Shown piece by piece: positions 2,360 through 36,473 of a DNA stretch of 64,000 nucleotides; positions within the stretch are counted from its first letter, which is position 1; every line of letters starts with the position of its first letter. Under the pieces are notes generated by a model. That model was not told where the DNA came from. It searched no databases and saw nothing but the letters and a program-made list of their open reading frames with translations. The translations under genes and the position numbers were made by a program. The DNA is from Chloroherpeton thalassium ATCC 35110 (GTDB lineage: Bacteria > Bacteroidota > Chlorobiia > Chlorobiales > Chloroherpetonaceae). The stretch lies in contig NC_011026.1 of the NCBI RefSeq assembly GCF_000020525.1, forward strand, positions 1,594,001 to 1,658,000, given 5' to 3'.

Positions 2360-4639
2360 ATGAAAAAATCAAATTTGTTTTTCAATGGCTTCTTTTCCAT
2401 TTGGTTTCTTTGTGTTTGGCTTTTGCCGTTTGGCAACGCGTGCTACGCCGGGCAAATGCGTTTACAAGAAGCCAGCGCAAATTCCGTAAGGTACTCAAAT
2501 TCAGATTCAAGTTCCAAGCAATTGGGTTTTCGTCCGCAAAAAAGCCTCGATGACACGGCAAAAGTGCTTTATAAGTTCCTGGAGGAACCCCCACAAATTT
2601 TTTCGCCACACGAAACCATTTCTCGGAAAAACCGCGATTTCCTTTTTCATAGCAACATTGGCGATTATTTCTCCGAGCATGCAAACATTTTTTTGCGAGA
2701 TAAAGTCGAGTTTGGCCAACTCAATGAATTGCTAATTGGTGGCCTTGGCACGCGTTATCAGCATATTTTTCTCGACGATGTGCTCTTGAACGATCCAATT
2801 ACCATGTCGCCGATTTACCAATATCTTTCCACCGAGTCGTTTTCCTCGCTGCGTTTGCAAACCGGCTATATGGCCGGCGGATATTCATGGTCGCCCATCG
2901 TTTTGGAATCAACCACGCAGCGCATGGTGGTTGCAAATGGCTTCACGCGAATTCATTATTATCAATTTTTGGAAGGAACGCTCAAAACCGATGTGACTTT
3001 TTCGGTGAATTTTTCCGAGCGCTTGAATTTTTATTGCGACTATGCGCGCGAAAGCACCGACGGGCGATTTACCAACATCGGCGGTTCTGGAACTTCGCGC
3101 TACGGCTCAAGCTACGAGGGAAATAAATTCAATGTGCAATTTCGTTATCAGTTAGGCAAACAATCCTATCTAACCCTTGCGGATTATTTCAACTCGCTTT
3201 TGCAAAAGCCCTACGGCGGTGTCGATTATGCGACCTCTGTGGCAAACGATCTTGATCCGCTCGATCCGCTCAGCGCCGTCATCAAAAATCAGTACACCGA
3301 ACGCGCTTTGAAAATGAACGCGCTTCGTGTGGAATTGCAAACCCGATTGCCGTTTTTCTCAGATTCGTCCAATGTGTTTAAAGCCTGGATTCACCAAAGT
3401 ATATTCAGCTACAATTATGAAAAAACGGAAGAGTCGCTGCAAGATTCCTCTACTTTTCATGACAAAACCAATTCCTCGCGCTGGACGCTCGGCGCTTCGC
3501 AGCTCATCAACTTGCCGTTCTTGATTTTAAAACTGCGCGGCAATTATCTCCATGATAAAATCAGCGAGCAAAATATTCTTGAAAATGAAAGTGGCGAGGA
3601 AATTTTGCCCATAAGCCAAACGCTTGCTTTGCAAGGCGCGGGGCGCATGCGATTTGACCATTTGATTTTTGGCCAAACCTTTGAGGCTGGCGGCTCGCTT
3701 GCGCTGGTCAATCAAAATGTTTCGGAAACGGGCGGCGAAGATCATTCGGGTGTGCTGTTTAATGTGGGCGCGGGCGGAAAGGTTGTTTTTCCGATTCCGC
3801 TTTCCGAAGAAAGCAAAGTTGAAGCTTTTTTGAATTTGAGCCGCACCGAGCGCTTGCCATCGCTTCTGGAAGTTTTTTCAAGTGATAGTTCGCTGAGCGG
3901 TTCGCATAGTTGGCAAAAGGAGAAAATTCGCCATCTTGAATTTGGCGCGGCCTTTTTTGCGGGGAAAAATTTTCAACTTCGAGCGTCGTTTATCAACAAT
4001 AATGTGGCTTCGCCGCTGGTGGTGGTGCAGCAAGCCGACGGCGATAGTTTGGTTAGCGCGTCGTATCGCTCGCTTGATGGCGAAAATTTGAATTACACCG
4101 GCATTGGCCTGAGCGCGAAGTTCAACTTTGGGCGATTTGAAACGACTCTCGACGCCACAACCATTTTGGATTATAGCCTGCTTAGCAATCCCGATAACGA
4201 CTACGCAGATTCGCTTTCGGCTTATGGCTACGATGAATCCGGCCTTTCAAGTAATCAGGTTTTCTATTTGCCAAAATTTTATCTTTCCTATCAAATTTAT
4301 TACAACGCGAATTTATTTGACGATGCGCTCAAATTGAAATTCGGATTGGCCGGATTTTTTATGACCGACATGTCGTCGTCGTTGCAAAGCAGCGAGCGAC
4401 AAAACACCATTTATTTTAACTTGGTTGAGCAAAACGGCACGCTCAGCGACAATAATTTGCAGTTCGGCGTGCAAGGCTTGAAATCGCGTGTGGATTTTCG
4501 GCTTTGGGCAGAATTTGGCAGCGCGGTGATCACGCTTTCTTTTGAGAATTTGCTCGACGAGGTGCTGTATAAAACCCCGATTTATCAGATGAACGAGCGC
4601 GCGCTCCGCTTTGGATTTAACTGGATTTTACTTGATTGA
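2360..4639 (+). CDS. TonB-dependent receptor-like outer-membrane beta-barrel protein
   Basis: Probable outer-membrane protein of 759 residues. The ATG at 2360 is chosen because it opens a classic signal peptide (MKKSNLFFNGFF, then a Leu/Phe/Trp core ending near ACYA-GQ). The frame is open back to 2222, but that extension has no signal character. After the signal peptide comes a region of about 150 residues like a TonB receptor plug (IFLDDVLLNDPITMSPI), then a long run of alternating aromatic/polar strands. It ends with a C-terminal strand finishing in a hydrophobic residue (ALRFGFNWILLD), typical for BAM-assembled barrels. No convincing TonB box or carboxypeptidase-like N-terminal domain was found, so the substrate is unknown. 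It stands alone; trpC follows 57 bases later. Confidence 0.7.
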   Translation: MKKSNLFFNGFFSIWFLCVWLLPFGNACYAGQMRLQEASANSVRYSNSDSSSKQLGFRPQKSLDDTAKVLYKFLEEPPQIFSPHETISRKNRDFLFHSNIGDYFSEHANIFLRDKVEFGQLNELLIGGLGTRYQHIFLDDVLLNDPITMSPIYQYLSTESFSSLRLQTGYMAGGYSWSPIVLESTTQRMVVANGFTRIHYYQFLEGTLKTDVTFSVNFSERLNFYCDYARESTDGRFTNIGGSGTSRYGSSYEGNKFNVQFRYQLGKQSYLTLADYFNSLLQKPYGGVDYATSVANDLDPLDPLSAVIKNQYTERALKMNALRVELQTRLPFFSDSSNVFKAWIHQSIFSYNYEKTEESLQDSSTFHDKTNSSRWTLGASQLINLPFLILKLRGNYLHDKISEQNILENESGEEILPISQTLALQGAGRMRFDHLIFGQTFEAGGSLALVNQNVSETGGEDHSGVLFNVGAGGKVVFPIPLSEESKVEAFLNLSRTERLPSLLEVFSSDSSLSGSHSWQKEKIRHLEFGAAFFAGKNFQLRASFINNNVASPLVVVQQADGDSLVSASYRSLDGENLNYTGIGLSAKFNFGRFETTLDATTILDYSLLSNPDNDYADSLSAYGYDESGLSSNQVFYLPKFYLSYQIYYNANLFDDALKLKFGLAGFFMTDMSSSLQSSERQNTIYFNLVEQNGTLSDNNLQFGVQGLKSRVDFRLWAEFGSAVITLSFENLLDEVLYKTPIYQMNERALRFGFNWILLD

Positions 4640-6203: not shown

Positions 6204-8348
6204 ATGTCCGAAACGCATATCAACAGGCAGATTAATCAAGGTGCGGGAAGCACCTACAACGAAATTCATCACATCATTATCAATTCGGTTGATTATAAAA
6301 TTTTAACCGAAGAGATTGAGGAACTGAAAGCAGACATTCAAGAGGCGACTTGCGACGAGCGGCGCTTGAAAAAGTCAAAAAAATTGACGGAAAAAGAAGC
6401 GCAATTGGAAGACCTGAAGCAAACCGTCCTTCGCCTGCATGAGACTTTTACGAAAATCCCGATAAATACCGAGCGGCTCAGGCTTGCAAAGGCGCGTTTT
6501 GAGAAAGGCGAGTTTCGCGAAGCCGATGCCATTTTGGACCCCGAACCCATACGCCACGAAGTCAAGTACCTGAAAAGCGAGAAGGCGAAAAAAGAAGAAG
6601 AGATAGCGGCAATAGACGAGACGCTAAGAGATAAGGCCAACGAGTTTTTGATTAAAGCCCAGCTTTGGAAAACCTTTTATAGCAAACCGAATTGGTTCGA
6701 ACAAACCTCCCATTTTTTTGAAGAATCCCTAAGCGCCGCGCCCACGCTGGAAGGCCTGTTTCAATACGCTGTGTTTTTACATAAACACAACCAATTCCAA
6801 AAAGCGCAGCCGCTCTATGAAGAAGCGCTGCAAATCTATCGGAAGCTGGCTGAGGAGAATCCAGAGGCCTTCTTGCCCGATGTGGCCATGACCTTGAACA
6901 ATTTGGCTGTTTTGCATTCGGATAAAAACGAGCTGAGCGTGGCGCAAGCGTCTTACCAAGAAGCCCTGCAAATCTATCGGAAGCTGGCTGAGGAGAATCC
7001 AGAGGCCTTCTTGCCCGATGTGGCGATGACCTTGAACAATTTGGCTGTTTTGCATTCGGATAAAAACGAGCTGAGCGTGGCGCAAGCGTCTTACCAAGAA
7101 GCGCTGCAAATCCAAAGGAAGCTGGCAGAGGAGAATCCAGAGGCCTTCTTGCCTGATGTAGCAACGACCTTGAACAATTTGGCTGTTTTGCATTCGGATA
7201 AAAACGAGCTGAGCGTGGCGCAAGCGTCTTACCAAGAAGCCCTGCAAATCCGAAGGAAGCTGGCAGAGGAGAATCCAGAGGCCTTCTTGCCTAATGTGGC
7301 CATGACCTTGAACAATTTGGCTGTTTTGCATTCGGATAAAAACGAGCTGAGCATGGCGCAAGAGACTTACCAAGAAGCGCTGCAAATCTATCGGACGCTG
7401 GCTGAGGACAATCCTCAGGCCTTCTTGCCTGATGTAGCAACGACCTTGAACAATTTGGCAAATTTGCAACAGTCAAAAAACGAGCTGAGCATGGCGCAAG
7501 CGTCTTGCCAAGAAGCGCTGCAAATCTATCGGACGCTGGCTGAGGACAATCCTCAGGCCTTCTTGCCCGATGTGGCGATGACCTTGAACAATTTGGCTGT
7601 TTTGCAAAAGGCAAAAAACGAGCTGAGCGTGGCGCAAGCGTCTTACCAAGAAGCGCTGCAAATCCAAAGGAAGCTGGCAGAGGAGAATCCAGAGGCCTTC
7701 TTGCCTGATGTAGCAACGACCTTGAACAATTTGGCTGTTTTGCAAAAGGCAAAAAACGAGCTGAGCGTGGCGCAAGCGTCTTACCAAGAAGCCCTGCAAA
7801 TCCGAAGGAAGCTGGCCAAGGCGAATCCAGAGGCCTTCTTGCCTAATGTAGCGATGACCTTGAACAATTTGGCAGCTTTGTATTATGCAAAAAACGAGCT
7901 GAGCGTGGCGCAAGCGTCTTACCAAGAAGCGCTGAACATATATCGGAAGCTGGCAGAGGAGAATCCAGAGGCCTTCTTGCCTGATGTAGCAACGACCTTG
8001 AACAATTTGGCAGCTTTGTATTATGCAAAAAACGAGTTGAGCTTGGCGCAAGCGTCTTACCAAGAAGCGCTGCAAATCTATCGGAAGCTGGCCGAGGAGA
8101 ATCCAGAGGCCTTCTTGCCTTATGTGGCTACCACCGCTATCAACCTCAGTATTTTTTATTTGCAGGCAAAACCGGATAAGGAAACATCTATCGCGTTCGC
8201 AAAAGAGACGCTGGAAATTGCGATTCTTTTCCAGCATGTGCCCAGTGTACTTGACAATGGGAGAAAGGCCGTTCAGGTATTGCAGGCAAACGGTGTGGAT
8301 GTGAAGGCGTTTTTGGAAGAACTTGACCAAAAATATGGAGAGCAGTAA
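6204..8348 (+). CDS. Tetratricopeptide repeat protein with ten near-identical 46-residue repeats
   Basis: 714-residue, probably cytosolic scaffold or sensor protein; no signal peptide. Residues 1-25 carry RQINQGAGSTYNEIHHI, copied in the upstream protein's tail. Residues 30-160 are charged coiled coil. Residues about 160-200 are a divergent helical lead-in. Ten TPR units of exactly 46 residues follow from about residue 201 (pattern YQEALQIYRKLAEENPEAF, then LP(D/N)VA and TLNNLA), longer than the usual 34 or 42. The units are nearly identical in both protein and DNA, which points to recent expansion or ongoing homogenisation. A short capping region ends the protein (AFLEELDQKYGEQ). It is probably co-transcribed with 5764-6198. 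Function unknown; a ligand-binding partner of a signalling or conflict module is the best guess. Confidence 0.85.
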   Translation: MSETHINRQINQGAGSTYNEIHHIIINSVDYKILTEEIEELKADIQEATCDERRLKKSKKLTEKEAQLEDLKQTVLRLHETFTKIPINTERLRLAKARFEKGEFREADAILDPEPIRHEVKYLKSEKAKKEEEIAAIDETLRDKANEFLIKAQLWKTFYSKPNWFEQTSHFFEESLSAAPTLEGLFQYAVFLHKHNQFQKAQPLYEEALQIYRKLAEENPEAFLPDVAMTLNNLAVLHSDKNELSVAQASYQEALQIYRKLAEENPEAFLPDVAMTLNNLAVLHSDKNELSVAQASYQEALQIQRKLAEENPEAFLPDVATTLNNLAVLHSDKNELSVAQASYQEALQIRRKLAEENPEAFLPNVAMTLNNLAVLHSDKNELSMAQETYQEALQIYRTLAEDNPQAFLPDVATTLNNLANLQQSKNELSMAQASCQEALQIYRTLAEDNPQAFLPDVAMTLNNLAVLQKAKNELSVAQASYQEALQIQRKLAEENPEAFLPDVATTLNNLAVLQKAKNELSVAQASYQEALQIRRKLAKANPEAFLPNVAMTLNNLAALYYAKNELSVAQASYQEALNIYRKLAEENPEAFLPDVATTLNNLAALYYAKNELSLAQASYQEALQIYRKLAEENPEAFLPYVATTAINLSIFYLQAKPDKETSIAFAKETLEIAILFQHVPSVLDNGRKAVQVLQANGVDVKAFLEELDQKYGEQ
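6804..8183 (+). repeat. Tandem array of ten 138-bp coding repeats
   Basis: The TPR-coding repeats begin at 6804 and recur every 138 bases (6942, 7080 and so on to 8046). Units 1-9 are highly similar DNA; unit 10 diverges at its 3' end. Sub-families differ at fixed spots, for example HSDKNELS, QKAKNELS and YYAKNELS, and Y/Q/R after LQI. The order of sub-types suggests block duplications of two to three units. Confidence 0.93.
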
Positions 8349-14820: not shown

Positions 14821-15639
14821 ATGGCTGAGCTTAAAGGAAAAAAGAATAAAAAAAGGAATACGTTCACAGTTGCTATCGTGCCCGATGATGGCTCTGAAGC
14901 CAAAGGCTACGAAAATGTTTCCAGTCAAAAACTCGTCCTTGCGATTCTCTCATTGTGTTTGGTTGTTGCAATGAGTGTTGCTTTGCTTATCGCATTAACA
15001 CCGTTAAAGACGCTTTTGCCCGGATATGGATCGGCGACGCGTTACGAAAAACGGTTGATTGCGAACCAAATGAGATTGGACAGTTTGAGTTCGAAATTGT
15101 TGGAATTGGATCGCTACAATCAACGAATGAAAAACATATTGGGCATTACGCCCTTTCCCGATTCGGCGGCTTACATTCCTGAACGCATTGCCAATGCCAC
15201 ACCGCGTCGTCAGTTTTATGCAAAACAAGAAGCGTATTTGCCTATTCAAAATGAGGATGATCAGTTGGCTATACCGGATTATGTGGGAAATGTGGTCAGC
15301 GGAACGCTTTCTCAAGAGTTTTTGCCAGAACGAAGCCATTATGGGATCGATATTGCCACAGCTTCCAACGAGCCAATTGGTGCTTTTTCCGATGGCACCG
15401 TGCTTTTTGCAGACTGGAACTACGATTACGGCTATACATTAATTATTGATCATGGTGGCTTAATCAGTTTTTATAAGCATTGCAATAAATTGTTGGTGCG
15501 AGAAGCTGCTCAGGTGAAGCGCGGTGAAGTGGTTGCGCTTGCGGGCAACACCGGCCATGAATCTTCAGGACCGCACCTGCATTTGGAAATGTGGACAGAC
15601 GGCATTCCGGTTAATCCGGCAGATTATATTCAAAATTGA
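14821..15639 (+). CDS. M23-family (LytM-type) metallopeptidase, membrane anchored
   Basis: Peptidoglycan endopeptidase or an LytM-type regulator, 272 residues. A basic cytoplasmic N-terminus (KGKKNKKRN) is followed by one membrane helix (residues about 37-60, LVLAILSLCLVVAMSVALLI), a short coiled coil (about 75-100), and a C-terminal M23 domain. The zinc-binding set is intact: HYGIDIA (His and Asp of HxxxD), HGGLISFYKHC, and GPHLHLEMW. The active site would face the periplasm. The bactofilin gene begins 10 bases after its stop; M23 peptidase/bactofilin pairs are known in several phyla to shape cells, so it probably acts on the wall at sites marked by the bactofilin scaffold. Confidence 0.93.
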   Translation: MAELKGKKNKKRNTFTVAIVPDDGSEAKGYENVSSQKLVLAILSLCLVVAMSVALLIALTPLKTLLPGYGSATRYEKRLIANQMRLDSLSSKLLELDRYNQRMKNILGITPFPDSAAYIPERIANATPRRQFYAKQEAYLPIQNEDDQLAIPDYVGNVVSGTLSQEFLPERSHYGIDIATASNEPIGAFSDGTVLFADWNYDYGYTLIIDHGGLISFYKHCNKLLVREAAQVKRGEVVALAGNTGHESSGPHLHLEMWTDGIPVNPADYIQN

Positions 15640-29959: not shown

Positions 29960-30147
29960 GCCCCTTTGTTCGATCGCGATAGATTCTTCGGCTAAGAAGC
30001 CTCAGAATGACAAAGTTCTTTTTCGTCATGGGCAAGCGGAGACGAAGCCTGATGCCCCTTTGTTCGATCGCGATAGATTCTTCGGCTAAGAATCCTCAGA
30101 ATGACAAGGTTCTTTTTCGTCATGGGCAAGCGGAGACGAAGCCTGAT
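29960..30147. repeat. Two tandem copies of a 94-bp dispersed repeat unit
   Basis: Bases 29960-30053 and 30054-30147 are direct copies that differ at two visible positions (gaagcct/gaatcct and caaagttc/caaggttc). Each holds a gattcttcggctaag block, a cagaatgaca block and agcggagacgaag, all also found in other gaps of the window. They lie past the end of the PEP carboxykinase gene, beyond its terminator. Confidence 0.88.
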
Positions 30148-33226: not shown

Positions 33227-34564
33227 ATGTCCGATTTATTATCGGTTTATGAACGATTTTCCCCCGAACCTTTGAGCGGCGACGGCCTGAAAAAATTTTA
33301 TGTCAATGCGTTTGAAGGAAGAGGAGACCAGCCTGTTAAAAAGTTGGCTCGCCGACTCAAAAATAAACCGGACGGTAAACTTCAAATTCTTTTTTCCGGC
33401 TATCGTGGCTGCGGAAAAAGTACCGAGTTAAACAAGCTTCAGAAAGACATCGGCGATGAGTTCGTTTCGCTTAACTTTTCGGTGGCTAAAGAGCTTGACC
33501 CCGTGAATATCCGTTACAGCGAGATATTCATCATTACGATGGAAAAGCTCTTTGAACTGGCTGATACACATCACCTGTCTATCGAGCAAGACATTTTAAC
33601 CCGTATTCAAAAATGGTATAGCCATGAAGAATTGAAGGAACTTCAAAGTTTCACAGGCGAGCTGACGGCTGAAATCGGCGTTGAAGGAAAGTTCGGCGTT
33701 TCATTACTGGCCAAAATTTTCGGGAAACTTCGCGCCGCCGGAAATGCCAGTTTCAATACCAAAAAGCTCATCACTCAAAAAATAGAACCGCGCCTCTCGG
33801 ATTTAATCGGTCATTGCAACACCTTGATTCGTGAAATCAAAAACAGGCTGCCCGACATCGGCAAAAAAGGCTTGCTCATCATTATCGAAGACCTTGACAA
33901 GCTTTCGCTTAGCAAAGCCGAAGAGCTTTTTTTCAAACATAGCCACATACTGAACGGCCTGCAAACGCATGTCATTTTTACCTTTCCCATCTCGCTCCGG
34001 CATCATAACAAATCGACGATTATCAAATCAAATTTTGATGAAGATTTTGAACTGCCGATGGTGAAGGTGAATGACAAAAACGGAAATCCTTATGGCGACG
34101 GCAGAGAGGTTTTACAAAAGATTATTCAAAAACGAATCAATTTAAACTGTTTTGAAAATCGGGCGTTGATAGAAAAATTCATTGCGATGAGCGGCGGTTG
34201 CATTCGTGATTTGTTTCGCATGATTATGGACGCGGCTGATAGCGCGTTAGACAATGAACGCGAACAAATTACGGAAGCCGATTTCAGAAAAAGCTTTCTG
34301 CGGCTCAAACGCGATTATGAAAATACCGTTGCCGAAAAGCGAATTGACCACCAAATCGTCATTTCGGTTGAGGAATATTATCGGACATTGAAAGACGCTG
34401 CCGAAAGCCGAACGAAGAAGATAGATAACACCGATGCGGCGCTTGACCTCAGACAAAACCTTTGCATTCTCAGCTATAACGACGAAGGTTGGAGCGATGT
34501 GCATCCGATTGTTCGCCGGATTTTAGAAGAGCGAGAACTCATTAGTCCGCCGTGCAATGAGTGA
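33227..34564 (+). CDS. STAND/AAA-type P-loop ATPase
   Basis: 445-residue cytosolic ATPase. Walker A is GYRGCGKST (residues 58-66). Walker B is LLIIIEDLDK (216-225), with the Asp-Leu-Asp form seen in STAND and KAP-like switches. A sensor-like strand THVIFTFPISL follows near 247-257, and a helical and winged-helix-like C-terminus ends SYNDEGWSDVHPIVRRILEE. No transmembrane or nuclease segment was found. The stop overlaps the next gene by 8 bases, so the pair is translationally coupled: this ATPase supplies the switch and the downstream TPR protein the sensor. In most STAND proteins these parts are one chain. Biological role unknown; defence or signalling is inference. Confidence 0.85.
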   Translation: MSDLLSVYERFSPEPLSGDGLKKFYVNAFEGRGDQPVKKLARRLKNKPDGKLQILFSGYRGCGKSTELNKLQKDIGDEFVSLNFSVAKELDPVNIRYSEIFIITMEKLFELADTHHLSIEQDILTRIQKWYSHEELKELQSFTGELTAEIGVEGKFGVSLLAKIFGKLRAAGNASFNTKKLITQKIEPRLSDLIGHCNTLIREIKNRLPDIGKKGLLIIIEDLDKLSLSKAEELFFKHSHILNGLQTHVIFTFPISLRHHNKSTIIKSNFDEDFELPMVKVNDKNGNPYGDGREVLQKIIQKRINLNCFENRALIEKFIAMSGGCIRDLFRMIMDAADSALDNEREQITEADFRKSFLRLKRDYENTVAEKRIDHQIVISVEEYYRTLKDAAESRTKKIDNTDAALDLRQNLCILSYNDEGWSDVHPIVRRILEERELISPPCNE

Positions 34565-36473
34565 GTCGCTTGCCGAATATCAGGAGAACCTGAAACGCGC
34601 CGAACGCTTTTTTTTAAAAACTGAACGCAGCGCTTTTTTATTTGCGGTTGCCGATAACGATGTGGCGGAAAGAGATGCGTGCAATGCGTTACGCGCGTCG
34701 ATTCAAGAAAAGGGCAAAATCGTTCGGCTCTTTTCATGGAAACCGGACGAAAACGAAAAAGAGCGCGAATTGCCGTTGACTCGCCTCAGAAATTTCTTAG
34801 CCGAACATCCCAAAACCGACGGTCTGATTTTTACCGGCATTGATGCGGCTCAAAAGGAAAACGCTTATTTTCTCACCCAACTTAATTTTGCCCGCGAAGC
34901 GCTTTCCGAGTTTGGTGTTCCCATGCTTTTTTGGCTGCGCAAAGAGGCATTAAGCCAAATGGGCTTTGAAGCCATTGACATTTACAACCAACGCGCCGGC
35001 TCAAATTTGTACTTTGAAAAAGCCGCAGAACCCACACAAAAAAGAGAGCTTGAATTTGACGGCTCTTATGAAACGCACGAATACATAGACACCCAGCTTG
35101 CCCCGCTGCTCCGGCAATTGGACGAGGCCGAAAAAGCCCGCCGTGAACCCGCAACGCTTGCAAACGACATGGTGCTTGAGATTTTAAAGCTTCTCGTCAA
35201 GCTTCCGAAAAAAGAACACGAAGTAAAATCCTTGATTGAGAAATATGCCGCTCATTTTGACGAGGCCAATCCAAAAACATGTCAAGTTTTAGGAGACTCT
35301 TTTGACTATGTAATAGACTATGAAAAAGCCCGTTATTATTATGAAAAATCGCTTTTCGTTTATGAGAAACTTGCCGAAGAAAATCCCGATGCGTATTTGC
35401 TTGATGTGGCTGAAAGTCTGTATAATCTTGCTATTGTGATGTATCAACAAGGCAGATACGAAGAGGCTGAACCGCTTCATAGACAGGCATTAAAAATCCG
35501 TGAAGAGAAATTGGGTGACGACCATCCCGATGTGGCTTCAAGTCTGAATAATCTTGCTATTGTGATGTCTAAACAAGGCAGATACGAAGAGGCTGAACCG
35601 CTTTATCAACGGGCATTAAAAATCCGTGAAGAGAAATTGGGTGATGACCATCCCGATGTGGCGAAAAGTCTGAATAATCTTGCTATTGTGATGCATCAAC
35701 AAGGCAGATACGAAGAGGCTGAACCGCTTCATAGACAGGCATTAAAAATTCGGGAAGAGAAATTGGGTGACGACCATCCCGATGTGGCGAAAAGTCTGTA
35801 TAATCTTGCAAGTGTGATGTATGAACAAGGCAGATACGAAGAGGCTGAACCGCTTCACAGACGCGCACTGAAAATTCGTGAAGAGAAATTGGGTGATGAT
35901 CATCCCGATGTGGCTTCAAGTCTGAATAATCTTGCTATTGTGATGCATCAACAAGGCAGATACGAAGAGGCTGAATCGCTTTATCAACGGGCAATAAAAA
36001 TTCTGGAAGAGAAATTGGGTGACGGCCATCCCGATGTGGCTACAAGTCTGTATAATCTTGCAAATGTGATGTCTAAACAAGGCAGATACGAAGAGGCTGA
36101 ACCGCTTTATAGACAGGCATTAAAAATTTGGGAAGAGAAATTGGGTGACGACCATCCCGATGTGGCTTCAAGTCTGAATAATCTTGCTATTGTGATGTCT
36201 AAACAAGGCAGATACGAAGAGGCTGAACCGCTTCATAGACAGGCATTAAAAATTCGTGAAGAGAAATTGGGTGATGATCATCCTTATGTGGCGCACAGTC
36301 TGAATAATCTTGCTCTTATGATGTCTAAACAAGGCAGATACGAAGAGGCTGAACCGCTTTACCGACGGGCAATAAAAATCGCTGAAAAATCGCTTGGTAA
36401 GAACCATCTTTACACAAAATTATACCGCAAAAATCTTGAAGCGCTATTAAGAGCTAAAAGCCCAAATCCCTAA
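34557..36473 (+). CDS. TPR sensor protein with alpha/beta N-terminal domain, partner of the ATPase
   Basis: 638-residue cytosolic protein. Residues 1-165 form an alpha/beta domain with LFAVADNDVAERDACNALRA, TDGLIFTGIDAAQ and LNFAREALSEFGVPMLFWL. I recall similar L-N-x-x-R-E...P-x-L-F-W-L segments in bacterial STAND/TPR proteins. Residues 165-285 are helical. One 46-type unit (YEKLAEENPDAYLLDVAESLYNLA) resembles the TPRs of the 6204-8348 protein. Eight 42-residue TPRs follow (N-N-L-A-I-V-M, GRYEEAEPL, KIREEKLGDDHPDVA), nearly identical to one another, like kinesin-light-chain repeats. It ends RKNLEALLRAKSPNP. The ATG at 34557 overlaps the ATPase stop by 8 bases. It probably binds a ligand or partner and controls the ATPase. 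Confidence 0.85.
   Translation: MSESLAEYQENLKRAERFFLKTERSAFLFAVADNDVAERDACNALRASIQEKGKIVRLFSWKPDENEKERELPLTRLRNFLAEHPKTDGLIFTGIDAAQKENAYFLTQLNFAREALSEFGVPMLFWLRKEALSQMGFEAIDIYNQRAGSNLYFEKAAEPTQKRELEFDGSYETHEYIDTQLAPLLRQLDEAEKARREPATLANDMVLEILKLLVKLPKKEHEVKSLIEKYAAHFDEANPKTCQVLGDSFDYVIDYEKARYYYEKSLFVYEKLAEENPDAYLLDVAESLYNLAIVMYQQGRYEEAEPLHRQALKIREEKLGDDHPDVASSLNNLAIVMSKQGRYEEAEPLYQRALKIREEKLGDDHPDVAKSLNNLAIVMHQQGRYEEAEPLHRQALKIREEKLGDDHPDVAKSLYNLASVMYEQGRYEEAEPLHRRALKIREEKLGDDHPDVASSLNNLAIVMHQQGRYEEAESLYQRAIKILEEKLGDGHPDVATSLYNLANVMSKQGRYEEAEPLYRQALKIWEEKLGDDHPDVASSLNNLAIVMSKQGRYEEAEPLHRQALKIREEKLGDDHPYVAHSLNNLALMMSKQGRYEEAEPLYRRAIKIAEKSLGKNHLYTKLYRKNLEALLRAKSPNP
35412..36419 (+). repeat. Tandem array of eight 126-bp coding repeats
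   Basis: Units start at 35412, 35538 and so on every 126 bases to 36294. Six to seven are nearly identical; variation is concentrated at a few codons (MYQQ/MSKQ/MHQQ/MYEQ, LHRQ/LYQR/LHRR/LYRQ), which would lie on the TPR binding face. Confidence 0.92.

Follow-up and report, generated by a model that had tools for sequence, protein, structure and literature searches.

What might a P-loop ATPase and a tetratricopeptide-repeat (TPR) protein do together when their genes overlap on the chromosome and recur as a pair in other genomes? The question is raised by a locus of Chloroherpeton thalassium ATCC 35110, which we analysed within a window of 64,000 nucleotides (the whole stretch studied here; contig NC_011026.1, positions 1,594,001 to 1,658,000 of the forward strand) of a host chromosome that is a single contig of 3,293,456 bp; coordinates below are those of the window unless a locus is named. 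An earlier note, made from the letters of the sequence and without database searches, had taken the two genes to be a split STAND-type module in which the nucleotide-dependent switch and the repeat sensor are separate proteins. We think it probable, though some way from secure, that the pair constitutes a two-protein switch and receptor, most likely serving as a conflict system of the anti-phage or self/non-self type. More tentatively, as a proposal that we would rate at somewhat under an even chance, the pair may represent a class of split immune receptors that has not been described before and spans phyla, combining a dedicated AAA+ switch with a constant pseudo-ATPase plug and swapped sensors and outputs, including retroelement-diversified lectins, the window then holding a minimal, TPR-only receptor. 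The two genes and the parts of the second product are as follows.

33227..34564 (+): AAA+/KAP-like P-loop ATPase, 445 aa (open reading frame [ORF], Pfam KAP_NTPase, conserved motifs; closest PDB sequences are TnsC AAA+ proteins)
34557..36473 (+): TPR protein and putative receptor, 638 aa (ORF, Pfam; its start overlaps the ATPase stop by 8 bp)
34557..35021 (+): N-terminal domain of the TPR protein, aa 1-155, predicted to fold as a P-loop NTPase but lacking Walker A (AlphaFold2 and Foldseek)
35076..35309 (+): helical linker from the N-terminal domain to the TPR array (model helices)
35346..36420 (+): 42-residue TPR array of the kinesin-light-chain type (Pfam TPR_12/TPR_10, tandem repeat, PDB match)

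Both ORFs are intact and translate without internal stops, and the 8 bp common to the two genes, ATGAGTGA (34557-34564), are where the earlier note had placed an overlap of that length. The first gene looks like one encoding a working ATPase, to judge from its motifs, which comprise an N-terminal FYVN...RG, a Walker A sequence GYRGCGKST, a Walker B sequence LLIIIEDLDK and a sensor-2-like SGGCIRDLF. The two Walker sequences had been picked out before, together with an absence of sensor repeats; both observations are borne out, the motifs being conserved in close homologues, and in an alignment of 30 ATPase sequences both Walker motifs are near-universal, as are the N-terminal F/Y-Y-x-[DN]...R-G and the sensor-2-like SGG-x-x-R. 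Only one copy of the ATPase is present in the genome that contains the window.

The family to which this ATPase belongs is less easily stated. KAP_NTPase is the sole Pfam family that it matches over the cut-off (27.7 bits against 20, E=2.1e-6); a match to AAA_16 falls under its cut-off, and the NACHT, NB-ARC and nSTAND profiles give no match. When the solved structures were searched with a profile of 17 homologues, the closest sequence was that of VchTnsC, an AAA+ protein, with similarity running from Walker B to the sensor-2 region (E=7e-4). The STAND assignment of the earlier note did not survive this comparison: in its classical single-chain form the label is not supported by the sequence, as there is no match to a STAND profile and the switch and the sensor are encoded by separate genes, both in the window and in the intact homologous pairs. 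Many members of the KAP group of P-loop NTPases, though not all, have membrane helices inserted in the NTPase domain; the window ATPase, while passing the KAP_NTPase cut-off, has no membrane segment (maximum 19-residue hydropathy 0.98) and differs further from that group in having a near-constant pseudo-ATPase partner gene.

The pairing is conserved. The ATPase is patchily distributed and occurs in 22 of the 98 genomes of the class Chlorobia, the green sulfur bacteria to which the organism belongs. At 17 Chlorobia loci an intact protein with the N-terminal domain (hereafter N-domain) is encoded directly after the ATPase, which in some is itself broken or cut by a contig end; at another five, N-domain remnants stand in this position, the genes being broken or having in-frame deletions; at three the downstream product is the same C-terminal protein with no N-domain, and at two the contig ends too early to show the downstream gene. 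Among 395 genomes of the phylum, profiles detect the ATPase in 26, the N-domain in 23 and both in 22 (Fisher P about 5e-31, with relatedness uncorrected). Homologues of the two genes are therefore found mostly together, contrary to the outcome that the earlier note had named as refuting its reading, and even the single N-domain genome without an ATPase match (G036; such labels are ours, G for genomes and L for loci) retains the first 29 ATPase residues upstream. Pairs are also found in other Bacteroidota (L097-L100), and in all of the measured Chlorobia and Bacteroidota cases the ATPase stop and the partner start either overlap, by 4, 8, 11 or 20 bp, or lie no more than 5 bp apart. Since both proteins and their adjacency are conserved, a chance overlap of two ORFs is excluded. 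The patchy spread, the deletions and the broken copies would fit a conflict gene with a fast turnover. We note that in two different genomes (L048:10046-10387 and L052:9358-9633) the start of the receptor and the linker are kept and most of the N-domain has been lost through a similar in-frame deletion, which could be either a true variant or an effect of the assembly of metagenome-derived genomes.

More distant relatives lie on cyanobacterial plasmids. The ATPase matches eight cyanobacterial plasmid records at 24-27 % identity, and in six of the eight the next gene, located via the ATPase and not by an N-domain search (tblastn of the window N-domain against the plasmids gave no match), opens with a domain related to that of the Chlorobia proteins. 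The relationship is seen with hhalign, both between the Chlorobia and cyanobacterial N-domains (P=1.3e-6) and between those of the Bacteroidota and the cyanobacterial set (P=4.9e-6). In the longer cyanobacterial partners WD40 arrays come next, and of the three partners scanned one also has a listed nSTAND1 match. A Calothrix plasmid (L095:5926-9381) carries two ATPase-family copies in tandem, of which the second has a fused TIR domain and precedes a WD-40 gene, and on a plasmid of Nostoc C057 (L094:2090-7263) the ATPase family is fused to a SAV_2336-annotated protein and adjoined by MoxR and VMAP-C genes; this places the fusion inside a ternary conflict system like those reported in 2020 (PMC7159879). 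Neither the ATPase nor the TPR protein has a homologue among the viral contigs, and none of the ATPase was found among the phage records.

The N-domain belongs to no family in Pfam, NCBIfam or PADLOC. An alpha/beta domain of about 165 residues had been noticed here earlier; the domain is present, although its proper extent is about residues 1-155, after which a helical linker follows (residues about 174-250, with model helices at 174-193, 198-213, 220-233 and 239-251). An AlphaFold2 model of the domain has an alternating alpha/beta fold (pTM 0.73, mean pLDDT 73), and its best 50 Foldseek matches in the PDB are all P-loop NTPases or complexes containing them, headed by DnaC (E=1.5e-4, TM 0.60) with RecA, phage P4, NSF, KaiC, ClpC and the origin-recognition/MCM complex after it; a longer modelled construct yields nearly the same Foldseek class. 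In the alignment, Walker A is absent at the expected position from the N-domains of all three lineages, among which F27, N110 and R113 (N110-x-x-R113) and D141 are invariant. An arginine is also found just before the last strand in all three (R146 in the window protein); either this residue or R113 may contact the ATPase, as a candidate for the arginine finger that is conserved in both proteins of the nSTAND2 pairs discussed below. With the predicted fold of a P-loop NTPase and no Walker A, the N-domain is a likelier candidate for a pseudo-ATPase docking part than for an effector, so that of the two roles suggested for it earlier, effector or adaptor, only the second comes close. As modelled, it is probably a P-loop NTPase domain whose catalytic function is gone but whose shape has been retained for docking, and an economical reading, made by analogy, likens this to the inactive subunits of AAA+ rings.

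The linker leads into repeat units of 42 residues at a constant spacing of 42 aa, encoded by a tandem array (35403-36379) with a period of 126 bp. Pfam TPR_10 matches eight stretches of the protein (E=1.5e-129), in keeping with an earlier count of eight near-identical 42-residue TPRs, but near-identity is a property of units 2-8, which have 30-40 of 42 residues in common; between the first motif-bearing unit and the others the figure is only 19-23 of 42. The best PDB match of the array is kinesin light chain 1 (1.8e-64), and proteins of that type have 42-residue repeats alike, but it is only the sensor part of the window protein that matches them and the remainder is unrelated. The window copy ends in these TPRs and is thus a short form, without a lectin domain.

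At six Chlorobium-group loci the N-domain-TPR protein is considerably longer, extending to about 1,580 aa. Pfam identifies metallophosphoesterase, NACHT and FGE-sulfatase (C-type-lectin) domains in the long form of L043, and the phosphoesterase region of the same protein is matched by the PADLOC candidate PDC-S60. The terminal 132 bp of the long-form receptor gene has a second copy elsewhere in the locus in L044, L045 and L049. The set is complete in L045, where a single RVT_1 reverse transcriptase (1250-2254) is followed by a single template copy (2269-2400) and there are three variable copies (473-603, 4475-4606 and 14934-15065), one of which is the end of the N-domain-TPR-NACHT-FGE receptor; L044 has a template and a variable repeat, and the reverse transcriptase of L049 is broken. 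Comparison of the L045 template with another local target gives 18 mismatches, of which 18 are at template adenines. Against the 3′ end of the receptor gene, 18 of 27 mismatches are at adenines in L045 (P=1e-8) and 21 of 24 in L044 (P=1.8e-14). Mismatches biased to adenines in this way are the signature of a diversity-generating retroelement, and we conclude that in these Chlorobium-group relatives the receptor is one of its targets.

How might the pair work? We suggest that the active AAA+/KAP-like ATPase would be the switch, and that the Walker-A-less N-domain would dock the receptor next to that ATPase, forming a mixed oligomer comparable to an AAA+ ring with an inactive subunit. The remainder of the receptor would be an exchangeable sensor, represented in the window by the 42-residue TPR array, whose ligand, if other TPRs are a guide, is probably a peptide or protein, and binding of the ligand would shift the ATP-dependent assembly of the pair. 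The output could then come from the fused metallophosphoesterase and NACHT domains in the long forms, and via a separate partner in the TPR-only form.

The closest published concept is that of the nSTAND2 systems, in which adjacent genes encode active and eroded NTPase-type cores with variable fused modules, a mixed oligomer has been proposed, and GT4 or HEPN effectors are the usual fusion partners of the inactive core (Kaur et al., 2021; PMC8195603). Active and eroded cores in adjacent genes are common to nSTAND2 and the window pair, the eroded core here being so by model and the likeness one of organisation; the window partner differs, however, in carrying TPRs, and its relatives in carrying NACHT-FGE (with metallophosphoesterase) or nSTAND1-WD40, instead of GT4 or HEPN. 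The iSTAND domain is likewise a catalytically inactive NTPase (PMC7159879), and the Nostoc ATPase homologue lies in the MoxR-vWA ternary setting described in the same work, but no MoxR, vWA or VMAP genes adjoin the window pair. NACHT-lectin targets of retroelements have been put forward as putative antigen sensors, many of them with uncharacterised N-terminal extensions (Dore et al., 2024; PMC10907252). The Chlorobium-group relatives likewise end in a targeted FGE-type C-type-lectin domain, with NACHT and metallophosphoesterase, but here one such extension can be identified, as a predicted pseudo-ATPase and TPR module preceded by the gene for a dedicated ATPase; the text of Dore et al. (PMC10907252), as searched, does not describe this combination of an N-domain-TPR protein and an ATPase gene. 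The module is little described, and it would fall among the split active/inactive NTPase conflict systems. If our interpretation is correct, the ATPase switch and the receptor are separate proteins that an eroded ATPase domain brings together, with a receptor end that is exchangeable or hypermutable, so that sensing can be changed without rebuilding the switch. It would also suggest a function for the uncharacterised extensions of the retroelement-diversified NACHT-lectin sensors, and the TPR-only version would be a small form convenient for biochemistry.

Several results weigh against a switch and receptor with a role in conflict. In PADLOC the ATPase has no more than a weak P-loop match and its partner only generic TPR matches, no effector domain was found in the window pair, and an uncontrolled search of the window's genome found no homologue of the L045 reverse transcriptase. 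The N-domain model, with its mean pLDDT of 73, was built from a thin alignment of three sequences, and profiles of the N-domain and of the ATPase, separate and merged, have no detectable sequence similarity, so that the pseudo-ATPase assignment is one of fold alone. Finally, the pair has no defence-island neighbours; the defence or signalling setting that the earlier note suggested is thus missing around the window copy and is provided by the relatives, with their NACHT, nSTAND1, metallophosphoesterase, TIR, VMAP/MoxR and retroelement associations.

The want of an effector could mean that the TPR-only pair has decayed from the long form (metallophosphoesterase-NACHT-FGE), losing its effector on the way and keeping little function, and broken or internally deleted copies are indeed common in the Chlorobium group (L048, L049, L052, L061, L062 and L068). 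We consider such decay unlikely, since TPR-only partners with varied repeat numbers are found at seven other Chlorobia loci and at six diverged Chlorobium/Bacteroidota loci, and both window ORFs are intact with every motif kept. A different possibility is that an effector is present after all, and that the N-domain is an enzyme or toxin held inactive by the ATPase. An effector-first architecture is common among STAND proteins, and the N-domain, compact and alpha/beta in structure and with N110, R113 and D141 invariant, would suit it; its predicted fold is nevertheless that of a P-loop NTPase, the effector-like domains of the long forms lie C-terminal to it, and it is retained unchanged where the other parts are exchanged, which a docking part would be expected to do, all of which makes this explanation very doubtful in our view.

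The surroundings of the pair bring a further alternative into consideration. Upstream are genes for phosphoenolpyruvate carboxykinase and a DoxX-like protein, and downstream is an extracytoplasmic function (ECF) sigma-factor operon; with ordinary metabolic and stress genes as neighbours, and with TPR scaffolds common in the window's genome, the two proteins might be a housekeeping ATPase and its TPR scaffold, acting perhaps as a chaperone-like factor in assembly or in regulation of the sigma-factor operon. This seems improbable, as the pair is patchy within the class and its relatives carry immune-type fusions, and as G001, a genome of the sister genus, has the sigma-factor operon without an ATPase there or anywhere else. 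Control of that operon as the main role was rejected because G001 does without the pair, and the same comparison indicates that the pair has been gained or lost. Its G+C content is 0.44, compared with 0.47 for the surroundings, and this offset and the absence from the sister genome together suggest gain or loss, without proof of transfer. Scans for promoters and terminators found nothing over the shuffled background.

Two other features of the window may be mentioned. A second TPR gene (6204-8348, +, 714 aa) encodes about nine 46-residue repeats, of a type as in the Chlorobium N-domain proteins, preceded by a 190-aa N-terminal region that begins INQGAGSTYNEIHHIII and has no Pfam match; its product may be another conflict-type adaptor. 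At 29960-30147 there are two tandem copies of a 94-bp unit, which is an abundant interspersed repeat, with 54 full or partial copies listed over the chromosome.

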